A stretch of DNA of 47,405 nucleotides, taken from assembly GCA_947632385.1 (NCBI GenBank), contig CANRPD010000014.1, positions 1 to 47,405 on the forward strand. The letters are read 5' to 3'. Positions within the stretch are counted from its first letter, which is position 1. Every line of letters starts with the position of its first letter. The DNA comes from an uncultured Clostridia bacterium. GTDB taxonomy: Bacteria; Bacillota; Clostridia; Oscillospirales; Acutalibacteraceae. This document shows, piece after piece, positions 10,929-31,091 of the stretch. A model generated the notes under the pieces. It was not told the DNA's origin and ran no database searches. It saw only the letters and a program-made list of their open reading frames with translations. Made by a program: the position numbers and the translations under genes.

Positions 10929-12824
10929 ATGCCGAAAATTCAGGTCCTCGATAAGCATGTGGCTGAACTAATCGCTGCTGGTGAAGTGGTGGAACGTCCT
11001 TCGTCGGTGATCAAGGAGCTCGTTGAAAATGCAGTGGATGCCGGTGCCAGCGTGATCACGGTAGAGATCCAGCACGGCGGCGTGACCTTTATGCGGGTGA
11101 CCGACAACGGATGCGGGATCGCCCCGGAAGATGTGCCCGTCGCTTTTCTGCGCCATGCGACCAGCAAGATCGGGGACAGGGAAGACCTGGATGCGATCGC
11201 GACTCTTGGGTTTCGCGGCGAAGCCCTGGCTTCGATTTCTGCCGTTGCCCATGTAGAGCTGCTGACCCGAACCCCTCAGGCGGCCACCGGAGTACGGTAC
11301 ACCTGCGGGGGAGAAGAGCAGCCTACGATCCAGGAAGCAGGGTGCCCCGTGGGGACCACGATTTTGGTGAAGGATCTGTTTTACAATACGCCTGCACGTA
11401 TGAAGTTTTTAAAAAAGGATACAACGGAAGGGAACTCGGTAGCGGGCGTCCTGGATAAAATGGCCCTTTCCCATCCGGAGATCTCTTTTCGCTTTATCCG
11501 AGACGGCAAGGAAACCCTGCGTACGCCGGGGGACAATCAGTTATCCTCTGCGGTTTACGGCGTTTTTGGCAAAGAGTTTCTCAATACGTTGATCCCTGTG
11601 GAGTATGAATACGAACATGTCCGAGTAAGCGGGTATGTTTCTCTGCCCACAGCCAGCCGGCCCAATCGCTCCATGCAGAACTTTTTTATCAACGGAAGGT
11701 ATGTTCGCAGTCGTACGGCGATGGCAGCCGTGGAGGAAGCGTATAAAGGGTCTATTATGACCGGCAAATTTCCGGCGTGCGTGTTGCACTTGTCACTGGC
11801 TTTTGGCGTGGTGGATGTCAATGTGCACCCCGCCAAGCTGGAAGTGCGATTTGTCAACGAACGGCCGATCTTTGATGCGGTGTATCATGCTGTGCGGTCA
11901 GCTTTGAATACCGGCGACCAACCCAAGGTCATGGCCTTCAAGCGGCCGATAGTCCATCCCTATGCACCGGCGCCTGAAACAGGAAGTCAATTGGAGATGC
12001 CTCCACCCGTTCCCACTGAAAAACCTTCTTTTCGGGTGCAGCCGGTCCATCGAGACGTTCCGCTCCGGGACAGCGGGTCGGAGAAAAAGGATTTCTTTGC
12101 TTTTGCACAGATGGCTTTGGAGGAGGACGAGTCCTCTGATCAACTCCCCTCGGCGGTTCGTTCGTTGGAAGAACAGAAGCCCGTGCCTTCCGCTGCAGAG
12201 GAGAATGGATCTCAGGAGCCTTCAAATTCTCAGCCCCTCTCCTTTACGAAAGCGTTTCATTCCAGGATCATTGGGGAAGCGTTCGGTACGTATATCCTGG
12301 TGGAATACAGTGACAGCGAACTGATGCTGATCGACAAGCATGCGGCTCATGAGCGTTTGCTGTACGAACAGTTGAAGGCCTCCGGAGTGGAAACTGGCGC
12401 GCAGAACTTGATCGAACCGGTCCCAGTGACGCTGAGCAAAGAGGAATATACGGCTGTGCTACAAAACGCGCAGCAGTTGACCGAGGCAGGATTTGAGATC
12501 GAAGATTTCGGGACGGGCACCGTCATCGTCCGGAGCATTCCCATGGTGCTGGACGGTCAGGACGCGGCGGACACGGTCATGGAGATCGCCGGGTATCTGG
12601 CAGATTTGAAGAAGGACATCACCCCGGAGCACTTGGATTGGGTGTATCACAATGTCGCCTGCCGTGCCGCCATGAAAGCCGGAGATCATACCAATCCGGA
12701 GATGTTGGTTTCCTTGGCGGAGCAGCTGGAACGTAATCCACAGGTGCGGTACTGCCCCCATGGCCGTCCGGTATACGTTGTGATCAAGCGGCGGGACCTT
12801 GAACGACAGTTTGGCAGGGTGTAA
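10929..12824 (+). CDS. mutL: DNA mismatch repair protein MutL
   Basis: About 631 residues. The GHKL ATPase N-terminus has IAAGEVVERPSSVIKELVEN, DNGCGI and TLGFRGEAL. The C-terminal domain has DKHAAHERLLYE, close to the DQHA-x2-E-x4-E metal site of endonuclease-active MutL, plus CPHGRP near the end. So it should nick DNA, as expected in bacteria lacking MutH. The linker (about residues 330-430) is Pro/Ser/Glu-rich. The ATG at 10929 gives the usual MutL N-terminus (MPKIQVLDKHVAELIAAGE); a GTG at 10923 is also in frame and nearer the AGAGAGG at 10911-10917. Confidence 0.97.
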   Translation: MPKIQVLDKHVAELIAAGEVVERPSSVIKELVENAVDAGASVITVEIQHGGVTFMRVTDNGCGIAPEDVPVAFLRHATSKIGDREDLDAIATLGFRGEALASISAVAHVELLTRTPQAATGVRYTCGGEEQPTIQEAGCPVGTTILVKDLFYNTPARMKFLKKDTTEGNSVAGVLDKMALSHPEISFRFIRDGKETLRTPGDNQLSSAVYGVFGKEFLNTLIPVEYEYEHVRVSGYVSLPTASRPNRSMQNFFINGRYVRSRTAMAAVEEAYKGSIMTGKFPACVLHLSLAFGVVDVNVHPAKLEVRFVNERPIFDAVYHAVRSALNTGDQPKVMAFKRPIVHPYAPAPETGSQLEMPPPVPTEKPSFRVQPVHRDVPLRDSGSEKKDFFAFAQMALEEDESSDQLPSAVRSLEEQKPVPSAAEENGSQEPSNSQPLSFTKAFHSRIIGEAFGTYILVEYSDSELMLIDKHAAHERLLYEQLKASGVETGAQNLIEPVPVTLSKEEYTAVLQNAQQLTEAGFEIEDFGTGTVIVRSIPMVLDGQDAADTVMEIAGYLADLKKDITPEHLDWVYHNVACRAAMKAGDHTNPEMLVSLAEQLERNPQVRYCPHGRPVYVVIKRRDLERQFGRV

Positions 12825-12825
12825 T

Positions 12826-13800
12826 ATGTCGCAACAGGGAAAAAAACGGGTCATCGCGGTCGTAGGCCCCACTGCTTCGGGAAAGACGGCACTGGGCGTG
12901 GCCTTGGCCAGGCAGTTTGACGGGGAGATCATTTCCTGCGATTCCATGCAGATCTACCGTGGACTGCCCATCGGCACAGCTCAGCCGTCTGCGGACGAAC
13001 GAATGGGTGTGCCCTGTCATCTGTTGGGATGCATCGATCCGAGCATGCCATTTTCCGTTTCCGACTTCGTGGCTCTTGCAGGAAACTGTATCGACGAGAT
13101 CTGCTCCCGAAACAGACTTCCTCTGTTAGTGGGGGGGACAGGCTTATATGTACGCTCTCTGCTGCGAGGTTTCGTTTTTCACGAGGAGGCGCAGGATGAT
13201 GCGCTGCGTCGTGAGCTCTTTCAGCGCGCTGACCTGCCGGATGGACCTCAAAAGTTGTTTGCAGAACTGGAAAGGGTAGACCCTGTTTCTGCGGCAAACA
13301 TTCATCCCCATAATGTGAAACGGGTCATTCGTGCTTTGGAATACTGGAAGCTCACGGGAGAACCCTTCTCCAATCAAGCAGAACGCTCCAGAACGCTGGA
13401 AACGCCCTACCGGCATCTGATCCTTTGCCTGGCGTTTCGAGACCGCCAACGGCTGTACAAACGAATCGACGGCCGGGTGGATGCGATGCTGGAACAGGGG
13501 TTGTTGAAAGAGGCGGAAATGGTCTATCGGTTGTATGCGGAAACGCCGACGGCTGCTCAAGCCATCGGATACAAAGAATTCTTTCCCTATTTTGCCGGAG
13601 ACCTTTCTTTGGCCCAAGCGGTGGAGGATGTCAAGCGCGAGAGCCGCCGGTATGCCAAACGGCAGATCACCTGGTTCCATCGAGAACCGGATGCCCAGTT
13701 CGTCTACTGTGACGACTTTGCCCAACCGGAGGACTTGGTGGGGCACTGTGCTTGTCTGCTGCGTGTTTTTTTGAGAACGGAGGACGACCATGATCAGTAA
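12826..13800 (+). CDS. miaA: tRNA dimethylallyltransferase MiaA
   Basis: 324 residues. It transfers a dimethylallyl group to A37 of tRNA, making the i6A substrate of MiaB. The P-loop GPTASGKTALG lies at the N-terminus, followed by the substrate motif SCDSMQIYRG and the segment LLVGGTGLYVRSL. The ATG at 12826 is one base after the mutL stop and is preceded by GGCAGGG. The frame extends upstream to 12799, but that part lies inside mutL. The 3' end overlaps the next gene by 11 nt. Confidence 0.97.
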   Translation: MSQQGKKRVIAVVGPTASGKTALGVALARQFDGEIISCDSMQIYRGLPIGTAQPSADERMGVPCHLLGCIDPSMPFSVSDFVALAGNCIDEICSRNRLPLLVGGTGLYVRSLLRGFVFHEEAQDDALRRELFQRADLPDGPQKLFAELERVDPVSAANIHPHNVKRVIRALEYWKLTGEPFSNQAERSRTLETPYRHLILCLAFRDRQRLYKRIDGRVDAMLEQGLLKEAEMVYRLYAETPTAAQAIGYKEFFPYFAGDLSLAQAVEDVKRESRRYAKRQITWFHREPDAQFVYCDDFAQPEDLVGHCACLLRVFLRTEDDHDQ

Positions 13801-29560: not shown

Positions 29561-29600
29561 GAAAGCCTCAGGACAAAATGTTCTGAGGCTTTCGTTTTTT
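29561..29600. terminator. bidirectional terminator between PHP gene and purF-like gene
   Basis: GAAAGCCTCAGGACA at 29561-29575 pairs with TGTTCTGAGGCTTTC at 29579-29593 (one G-T pair). A T-rich run (GTTTTTT) follows on the plus strand. The genes converge here. Confidence 0.88.
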
Positions 29601-29614
29601 GTATGAAGGACGCT

Positions 29615-31021
29615 TCATTCTTTCCCGTCCCAGCAGTAGGTACAGAGCTTGCATTTCGGAAGACCGACGGAATCCACCAGGTCATCCAAACGATGATAAC
29701 GCAAACTGGTGAAGTTTTGCTCTTTGCATATGTTTTCGACCATGACGCGGTATTCCTGCGTCTCGGGATCGGAATAGCGTTCGATGTTGTCGGGTTCTTC
29801 GGTCCCTTCCAGCTTTTTCACCACACGGCGAGCGATCAGATCCATGAGAGACGCAGAACGGGAGAAGTTTAAGTACTTGCACCCATAGAGCAGGGGAGGG
29901 CAGGCCGGCCGAACATGAACTTCCCGCGCACCGTGCTGATAGAGGAAATCCGCGGTCTCCCGCAGTTGAGTTCCACGAACGATGGAGTCGTCGATCAGCA
30001 CCATGCTCCTGCCTCGGATCAGGTCGTGGACGGGAAGCAGCTTCATATGCGCGATCAGGTCCCGCTGACTCTGCATCGTCGGCATAAAAGAACGGGGCCA
30101 GGTGGGCGTATACTTGATCAGCGGGCGAGAGAATGGGACGCCGGATTGATTGGCGTAACCGACCGCATGGGCCGTTCCGGAGTCGGGCACGCCTGCCACC
30201 ACATCGGGCTCCACGTCATCCCGTTTGGCCAGACGAGCGCCGCAGTTATAGCGCATCTGCTCCACGTTGATTCCTTCATAGCTGGAAGCAGGATAGCCGT
30301 AATACACCCATAAAAAGGCACAGATTTTCATCTCGTTTCCAGGACGGATCAAGGTTTGCACACCCTCGGGCGTAACGGCGGCGATCTCACCAGGCCCCAG
30401 CTCGCGTTCATCTGAATATCCCAGATTTAAGTAAGCAAAGCTTTCGAAAGAGACGCAGAACGCATTAGCTTTTTTTCCAATGCAGACCGGCGTGCGGCCC
30501 AGCCGGTCACGGGCCGCTAAAATGGCGTTTGGGGTCAAGAGCAAAACAGTCATAGAGCCATCGATCAGTTCTTGAGCATACTGGAGGCCTTCGATCAGGT
30601 TTGCCCGTTGGTTGATCACGGCTGCTACGAGTTCAGTGGCGTTGACTTCTCCTCCGCTCATTTCCAGGAAATGGGAGTGCCCGCCTTTGAAGAGCGTTTC
30701 GACCAACTGCTCCGTATTATTGATCTTTCCAACAGTGACGATCGCATAGGTGCCGTGATGGGACCGTACGATCAGAGGCTGGGGTTCATAATCGGAGATA
30801 CTGCCAATGCCCATATGTCCGGACATATCGGTAACATCTTTGTCAAATTTGGTTCGGAAAGGTGAGTTCTCAATATTGTGGATCGCACGGTCGAATCCTT
30901 TTTGAGGATCGTATACCGCCATGCCCGCACGGCGTGTGCCCAGGTGGGAATGATAGTCCGTGCCGAAAAACAAATCGAACATACAGTTCTCTTTGGATGC
31001 CACTCCGAAAAAGCCACCCAT
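29615..31021 (-). CDS. PurF-like phosphoribosyltransferase with inactive glutaminase domain
   Basis: 468 residues, aligning end to end with glutamine PRPP amidotransferase (PurF). The C-terminal half looks functional. The PRPP motif VLIDDSIVRGTQ is at 342-352. GVPDSGTAHAVGYA is conserved. Cysteines at 234, 381 and a C-x2-C-x2-C cluster at 457, 460 and 463 match the [4Fe-4S] ligand regions of Bacillus PurF. The N-terminal Ntn-glutaminase is degraded. The protein begins MGGFFG where PurF has the Cys nucleophile (MCG...). The catalytic-site Arg position is Gly71 (GHMGIGS). The HNG oxyanion motif reads TVG at 96-98. It cannot use glutamine as PurF does; ammonia or another nucleophile is inferred. 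Monocistronic. Confidence 0.88.
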   Translation of the reverse strand: MGGFFGVASKENCMFDLFFGTDYHSHLGTRRAGMAVYDPQKGFDRAIHNIENSPFRTKFDKDVTDMSGHMGIGSISDYEPQPLIVRSHHGTYAIVTVGKINNTEQLVETLFKGGHSHFLEMSGGEVNATELVAAVINQRANLIEGLQYAQELIDGSMTVLLLTPNAILAARDRLGRTPVCIGKKANAFCVSFESFAYLNLGYSDERELGPGEIAAVTPEGVQTLIRPGNEMKICAFLWVYYGYPASSYEGINVEQMRYNCGARLAKRDDVEPDVVAGVPDSGTAHAVGYANQSGVPFSRPLIKYTPTWPRSFMPTMQSQRDLIAHMKLLPVHDLIRGRSMVLIDDSIVRGTQLRETADFLYQHGAREVHVRPACPPLLYGCKYLNFSRSASLMDLIARRVVKKLEGTEEPDNIERYSDPETQEYRVMVENICKEQNFTSLRYHRLDDLVDSVGLPKCKLCTYCWDGKE

Positions 31022-31062
31022 ACTATCTACCTTCTTTGTTTCAATCCATTTTAAGCGTCAGT

Positions 31063-31091
31063 ATTTTAGCATACTTCCGTCAAAAGTACAA
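31063..31091 (-). promoter_or_regulatory. predicted promoter of the purF-like gene
   Basis: Minus strand -35 TTGTAC (31086-31091), 17-bp spacer, and -10 TAAAAT (31063-31068) preceded by TGC. The leader is about 35 nt, leaving no room for a purine riboswitch. Confidence 0.6.

Follow-up and report, generated by a model that had tools for sequence, protein, structure and literature searches.

A bacterial clade of PurF-like proteins without a glutaminase site that probably starts purine synthesis from free ammonia

The stretch of DNA analysed here (47,405 nucleotides; "the window") is contig C14 of a Clostridia draft genome of 1.96 Mb that is 97.8% complete. It carries an intact gene for a PurF homologue (Table 1), located within an open frame of 480 codons on the minus strand, a point omitted from an earlier sequence-only reading. 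Residues 3–383 match Bacillus subtilis PurF (phmmer, E = 1.4e-47), and homology over most of the length of the frame rules out a chance ORF. With the profile of canonical Bacillus-type PurF (TIGR01134) the protein scored 197.7 bits, far short of the curated cut-off of 350, which the PurF-like members listed in the 80-genome comparison described below do not reach either. In Pfam, GATase_7 passed its threshold and the PRTase domain narrowly missed its own.

Seven of the eight neighbouring frames match NCBIfam profiles, namely those of an RNA degradosome polyphosphate kinase, an exopolyphosphatase-like protein (below cut-off), asnS, a HisJ-family phosphatase, an aspartate aminotransferase of type Ic, the sporulation protein YtvI and a nicotinate phosphoribosyltransferase. 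Searches by tblastn with 14 reference proteins found no match to purA, B, C, D, E, H, L, M, N or O, carA or carB elsewhere in the 47-kb window, and the gene therefore stands alone there. The earlier statement that it lies away from pur genes thus holds for this window and fails for many relatives, in which the gene is pur-linked. The same reading had given it a promoter of its own; a consensus scan at the gene returned none, and inspection by eye suggested a weak candidate, TTGTAC-17-TAAAAT, at 31091–31063. Neither a riboswitch nor any other Rfam match was found in 6 kb of the window or around eight unlinked PurF-like copies. A terminator-like hairpin of 15 pairs is seen at window positions 29561–29593, between the converging HisJ-family and PurF-like genes.

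Table 1. Features of the PurF-like gene in the window
Feature	Position	Strand	Remark
PurF-like gene	29615..31021	-	468 aa, stop codon included; predicted glutamine-independent PRPP aminotransferase
AAGAAGG, likely ribosome-binding site	31030..31036	-	read by eye
Codon 2, Gly in place of the catalytic N-terminal Cys	31016..31018	-	alignment
Shortened glutamine loop GHMGIGSISDY, residues 68-78	30788..30820	-	canonical HVRYSTT segment with Arg/Tyr missing
Thr-Val, residues 96-97, in place of the oxyanion-hole His-Asn	30731..30736	-	alignment
Cys234, candidate Fe-S ligand 1	30320..30322	-	conserved in 183/183
Rebuilt PRTase flag loop KYTPTWPRSF, residues 303-312	30086..30115	-	canonical KN(R)Y..R(T)F
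PRPP-binding loop VLIDDSIVRGTQ, residues 341-352	29966..30001	-	alignment
Cys381, candidate Fe-S ligand 2	29879..29881	-	conserved in 183/183
Cys460-x-x-Cys463, candidate Fe-S ligands 3 and 4	29633..29644	-	each conserved in 181/183

In canonical PurF one domain splits ammonia off glutamine, and a channel carries it to the PRTase site. For residue counts, 183 PurF-like members, the window protein included, were aligned with 15 canonical PurFs. Because resemblance to the window protein was the criterion for collecting the members, their uniformity is in part a product of selection; the start codons of some relatives were set by motif. Residue 2 is Gly in 172 members and Ser in the other 11, and Cys is absent from the aligned nucleophile column as well; both translation and alignment thus bear out the earlier claim that Gly2 stands in for the nucleophile. 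Inspection by eye found no Cys hidden in a propeptide: 12 in-frame codons separate the ATG from the preceding stop, and none of them encodes Cys. A wrong start or a sequencing error in the second codon is ruled out by these codons and by the Gly or Ser at residue 2 of all 183 members, none of which has a Cys among its first three residues.

The rest of the glutamine site has gone too. According to PMC7953260, R73 of E. coli PurF forms a salt bridge with the glutamine carboxylate, and Y74 and I335 wall the ammonia channel. The segment corresponding to Arg73/Tyr74 is shortened and both residues are absent across the family; six of the 183 members carry one Arg ahead of the loop, at position 69. 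The earlier assignment of Gly71 to the active-site Arg was imprecise: an ungapped phmmer alignment does set G71 opposite this Arg, and in our alignment it falls on a pre-loop Gly/Ala. V97 was correctly placed opposite the oxyanion Asn, which is replaced by Val, Ile, Thr, Ala or Leu in the PurF-like members. The glutamine-pocket Asp (of SDTE, position 128) is Asp in only two of the 183, and the Arg of LQHRGQE is Leu in every one. The loss of the glutaminase is hence larger than first described, since the pocket Asp has gone and the flag loop is rebuilt. No glutamine-dependent PRA formation is predicted from these residues. New invariant residues (D22, Y23, S25, L27, H48, R56) occur in the dead Ntn domain.

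The PRTase half retains its PRPP and pyrophosphate loops. The PRPP loop of the window protein, VLIDDSIVRGTQ, is present as had been read; DDSIVRGTQ occurs in 180 of the 183 members, and D344, D345, R349 and S281 are found in all of them, as are K303 and R310. The flag loop reads KYTPTW.RSF, with YTPTW in 177 of 183. Residues 234, 381, 460 and 463 correspond to the Bacillus-type Fe-S cysteines, the cluster itself being predicted. Of the ligands listed in the sequence-only reading these four stand and C457 does not, since it is Cys in 92 of 183 members and mostly Asp or Glu in the others. Three further cysteines, at 13, 189 and 374, are conserved in 165, 171 and 180 of 183, respectively. Across the 183 sequences, which come from two phyla, 104 alignment columns are at least 98% invariant.

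An AlphaFold model of the protein (pLDDT 70.8, weak in the PRTase region) was used for the overall fold only. Foldseek placed the PurF structures 1ao0 and 1gph in its top two ranks at a TM of about 0.7, as obtained with a model of modest confidence; identity with 1ao0 in the structural alignment was 26%. Compared with canonical Bacillus-type PurF (TIGR01134; 1ao0, 1gph), the PurF-like protein thus shares the fold, the PRPP and pyrophosphate loops, the four Fe-S cysteines and, in some relatives, the place in the pur operon, whereas it lacks the catalytic Cys, the Arg/Tyr loop and the pocket Asn/Asp and has a rebuilt flag loop. The earlier description of a PurF homologue that lost its glutaminase and kept its PRPP and Fe-S sites is confirmed.

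The host has a second, canonical purF (C16:29372–30715, 474.3 bits), in whose frame as listed the Cys follows a 15-residue leader. The PurF-like protein is thus not the only PurF of the host. The gene order on contig C16 is purF-carA-carB. A purE-purM-N-O-H-D cluster without purF lies on C8, and inspection by eye saw no PurF remnant between its purE and purM, the 410-aa frame at that place being unlike PurF. The decisive evidence is the genome content of relatives and not that of the window's host.

At least 589 of the 592 pattern-matched stretches in the contig collection encode PurF-type relatives. The best 80 of these are 70–81% identical and come mostly from Lachnospiraceae and other Clostridia. 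An even draw from the phylum gave 299 genomes, our own included, of which 17 carry a PurF-like member scoring at least 612.8 bits; no other listed match exceeded 200.7 bits, and with no intermediates in that draw the clade is sharply set apart. Within the window's class it was found in 121 of 391 genomes, a count that includes six partial genes at or below 515 bits. Records of Parabacteroides, Bacteroides and Phocaeicola carry members with 48–49% identity, and Peptoclostridium carries one with 57%. Where annotated, these genes are called 'amidophosphoribosyltransferase' or 'hypothetical protein', and we found no published work on the bacterial clade in the open-access PMC literature.

The gene was also met in one IMG/VR contig filed as viral (L132, 56% identity) and in four records of a plasmid collection; a viral or plasmid origin was considered and not adopted. 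Three of the four plasmid records are Bacteroidota 'plasmids', and the two annotated ones look chromosomal, given their ribosomal-protein genes or eno. The gene that follows PurF-like is pepT in Peptoclostridium and in two Bacteroidota records, with gcvT coming next in the latter (L133:9001–12783, L134:9001–12904, L135:9001–11800); the link to pepT hence spans two phyla.

For comparison of genome content we used 80 of the 120 positives of the class other than our own genome, all at least 90% complete; 11 further positives of equal completeness were left out. A canonical purF above cut-off was present in 56 of the 80, and in the other 24, mostly drafts, none was found at E ≤ 1e-40, a limit at which a poorer-scoring purF fragment would escape. 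These 24 were searched for purD and purM together with our own genome and seven others. All 24 contain purD, and 23 contain purM (the exception being G671), so that by the genes tested they are not purine auxotrophs. Sixteen genomes with neither kind of PurF detected (15 no-match genomes of the phylum draw and one of the class draw) served as a control and yielded purM once, as a contig-edge piece; the control is weakened by the 10 of these genomes that are less than 90% complete, and among the other six purM was found in one. Judged by genome content, the PurF-like protein would provide the first step of the pathway in genomes that show no canonical PurF.

All 16 other carriers of the phylum draw have a further PurF match, which confines the purF-less carriers to part of the sampled range. 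On a quick tree of 109 sequences the label of purF absence changes 14 times, at least seven of these changes being forced by starred branches, so the switch to the purF-less state seems to have been repeated. One case, G486, looks like an assembly gap, as its near-identical sisters have purF. That the gene is a functionless, redundant pseudoenzyme or decaying duplicate might be suggested by the loss of one active site and by the canonical purF of the host; the many invariant columns across two phyla, the presence in nearly a third of the class genomes and the occurrence alone in 24 of 80 argue against this, and we consider it extremely improbable.

In seven of the 24 purF-less genomes (G314, G347, G372, G534, G545, G596, G597; G534 being a single-contig genome) the PurF-like gene occupies the purF slot of the pur operon, in the order purE-(purC)-PurFlike-purM-(purN)-(purO)-purH-(purD)-purL, with purB inserted in G534. 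NCBIfam cut-offs were passed by purE, purM, purN, purD, purL and AICAR formyltransferase in G347 and by purC and purB in G534. The PurF-like gene lies outside this slot in the remaining 17, following purC in G569 and G657 and carB in G438. In 13 further purF-less pur clusters no purF separates purE from purM: the two are immediate neighbours in 12 and flank purC in the remaining cluster (G494). Overall, the gene directly precedes purM in 20 of 97 loci (7/24 in purF-less genomes, 11/56 in those with both PurFs, 2/17 in the phylum draw), and G481, which has both PurFs, shows the order purC-PurFlike-purF-purM. A pur or car gene lies within 4 kb on the same strand at only 12 of the 24 purF-less loci, 16 of the 56 with both, 9 of the 17 of the phylum draw and 15 of 80 named loci; these counts cover the 80 named and the 97 genome-draw loci, all of which were recovered. 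At L140 the pur operon contains a PurO-like IMP cyclohydrolase (11674–12384; 53.5 bits against a cut-off of 150) followed by an AICAR formyltransferase without a cyclohydrolase domain (12408–13592), amounting to a split PurH in Clostridia.

Two other roles considered in the sequence-only reading can be weighed against this context. A PRPP, perhaps redox, sensor could regulate PurF, CarB or transcription, with PRA arising from side reactions in the purF-less genomes. Such a role would suit the association of the gene with carB or, in other lineages, with purB/purA, and PurF-independent PRA formation in Salmonella has been published (PMC3485032). However, 15 of the 16 genomes with neither PurF lack purM (10 of the 16 being less than 90% complete), which suggests that side reactions do not normally sustain the pathway; moreover, the PurF-like protein takes the place of purF in the operon and many of its PRTase residues are invariant. 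A sensor is therefore very unlikely. The same low likelihood attaches to a neofunctionalised PRTase with a different product, formed by transfer of phosphoribose to some nucleophile instead of ammonia. The wholly different and near-invariant flag loop could mean another nucleophile, and the conserved Cys374, Cys13 and Cys189 and the pepT neighbour shared by Peptoclostridium and two Bacteroidota records (pepT-gcvT in the latter) might be read likewise, but this would leave unexplained both the operon slot and the purD and purM of the purF-less genomes. Neither role would supply the first step that these genomes are missing. The term 'neofunctionalised' is probably too strong as well, since the product is most likely still PRA and the nitrogen donor alone would differ.

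A second glutamine-fed enzyme, the carbamoyl phosphate synthetase pair CarA and CarB, shows a related pattern. A carB without adjoining carA lies beside the PurF-like gene in G186, G211, G097, G011, G438 and G482, and 1.3 kb upstream of it in G611; G211 holds two copies of the pair (C49 and C67; L118, L119). In a tree of 29 chosen CarBs, with one G211 copy used, the PurF-like-linked CarBs form one side of a branch with 100% support. The same side holds three CarBs located less than 3 kb from a PurF-like gene (G378, G511, G524) and five unlinked second CarBs including the C3 copy of the host, and the second CarBs of two PurF-like-free genomes (G300, G312) fall outside it. In the host one CarA is accompanied by two CarBs, all outside the window (C3:9427–12567; C16:24944–30715), and the lone C3 CarB groups with those beside or near PurF-like genes in other genomes.

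CarA and CarB were surveyed in the 24 purF-less genomes, in 36 of the 56 with both PurFs and in 20 PurF-like-negative genomes picked from the phylum and class lists. CarB without any CarA was found in 9/24, 0/36 and 0/20, respectively (Fisher, purF-less genomes: 9e-5 against the 36 and 6e-6 against the 56); on independent pairs the CarA association is not significant, about two of seven running in the same direction and none in the opposite one. Seven of the nine CarA-less CarBs form another CarB group in the tree. CarA is missing in 12 of the 24 purF-less genomes, three of which also lack CarB, and both are missing in four of the 20 PurF-like-negative genomes. PurL still has its glutaminase Cys in all 12 of the purF-less clusters inspected, which means that these cells have not given up glutamine throughout. 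Both sets occur in the window's host and in the closed genome G482, where purF-carA-carB lies at C1:862968–868599 and carB2-PurFlike at C1:2557983–2562634; the sisters of G482 in the same genus, G438 and G611, show only carB2 and the PurF-like gene, without purF or carA. We tentatively suggest, at somewhat less than even likelihood, that gut Clostridia (and Bacteroidota for the PurF part) possess an ammonia-fed entry into nucleotide synthesis, made up of a dead-glutaminase PurF and a lone CarB, that stands beside the glutamine-fed purF-carA-carB set and has replaced it in some lineages.

The glutaminase might also have become a separate protein that docks onto the PurF-like protein, PRA formation then remaining glutamine-dependent in the cell. 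The retention of the dead Ntn domain would fit, and its new invariant residues could be a docking or ligand surface. Yet inspection by eye of the recurrent neighbour clusters listed in a survey of 98 loci (six without usable centre) revealed no such glutaminase, CarA, which is the sister pathway's own glutaminase, is absent from half of the purF-less genomes (nine of those without it keep CarB), and the stretch forming the glutamine site and channel wall is dismantled. We regard this arrangement as unlikely.

Taken together, the PurF-like protein is probably a glutamine-independent PRA synthase that aminates PRPP with free ammonia, its product, donor and regulation being those we infer. Use of free ammonia, one of the options in the sequence-only reading, is well supported by relatives in which this is the sole PurF, several of them with the gene inside complete pur operons; it probably starts purine synthesis from ammonia, because some carriers without another copy keep the rest of the pathway. 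The Ntn glutaminase domain would be kept as a dead scaffold, with the type I PRTase domain and the Fe-S cysteines retained; the glutaminase site and part of the channel wall are dismantled and the PRPP-binding residues intact. In the simplest reading, free ammonia would then aminate PRPP to PRA, and the gene context would follow from this step. In genomes with two PurFs, such as the host, the PurF-like protein may be a condition-specific second isozyme starting purine synthesis when ammonia is plentiful; in others it would be the only enzyme found for the first purine step. E. coli PurF with its Cys replaced is still able to use ammonia, as reported in PMC3261824.

Parallels to this arrangement exist. 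One is crenarchaeal PurF', a PurF paralogue without the N-terminal Cys encoded near pur genes, for which Brown et al. (2011; PMC3261824) propose an ammonia-dependent role, calling for experimental testing. In contrast to the situation here, where no canonical purF was found in 24 of 80 genomes, each crenarchaeon studied has one according to that paper. What is new here is the bacterial clade and its distribution, together with the rebuilt flag loop and those genomes that show the PurF-like protein alone. CPS I also keeps a dead glutaminase domain. Its relation to glutamine-dependent CPS II, as outlined in PMC6022934, is likewise that of a glutamine-fed enzyme gone over to free ammonia, although in a different enzyme and pathway, and no homology is claimed.

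By standard teaching, glutamine is required for the first committed step of purine synthesis. Pairs of enzymes serving one step are known from AsnA and AsnB and from the ammonia- and glutamine-dependent NAD synthetases; these have unrelated folds or no glutaminase domain, whereas the PurF-like protein keeps a dead one. If our reading is correct, this widespread clade, carried by many gut bacteria, would explain the 'missing purF' of otherwise complete pathways and call for correction of the annotations as amidophosphoribosyltransferase or hypothetical protein. The 2011 proposal for crenarchaeal PurF' would become testable in easier organisms, and the clade would offer a system for studying how an amidotransferase sheds its glutaminase. 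For the carriers, nucleotide supply would be tied to ammonia in the gut, and glutamine analogues would be predicted to spare this step.
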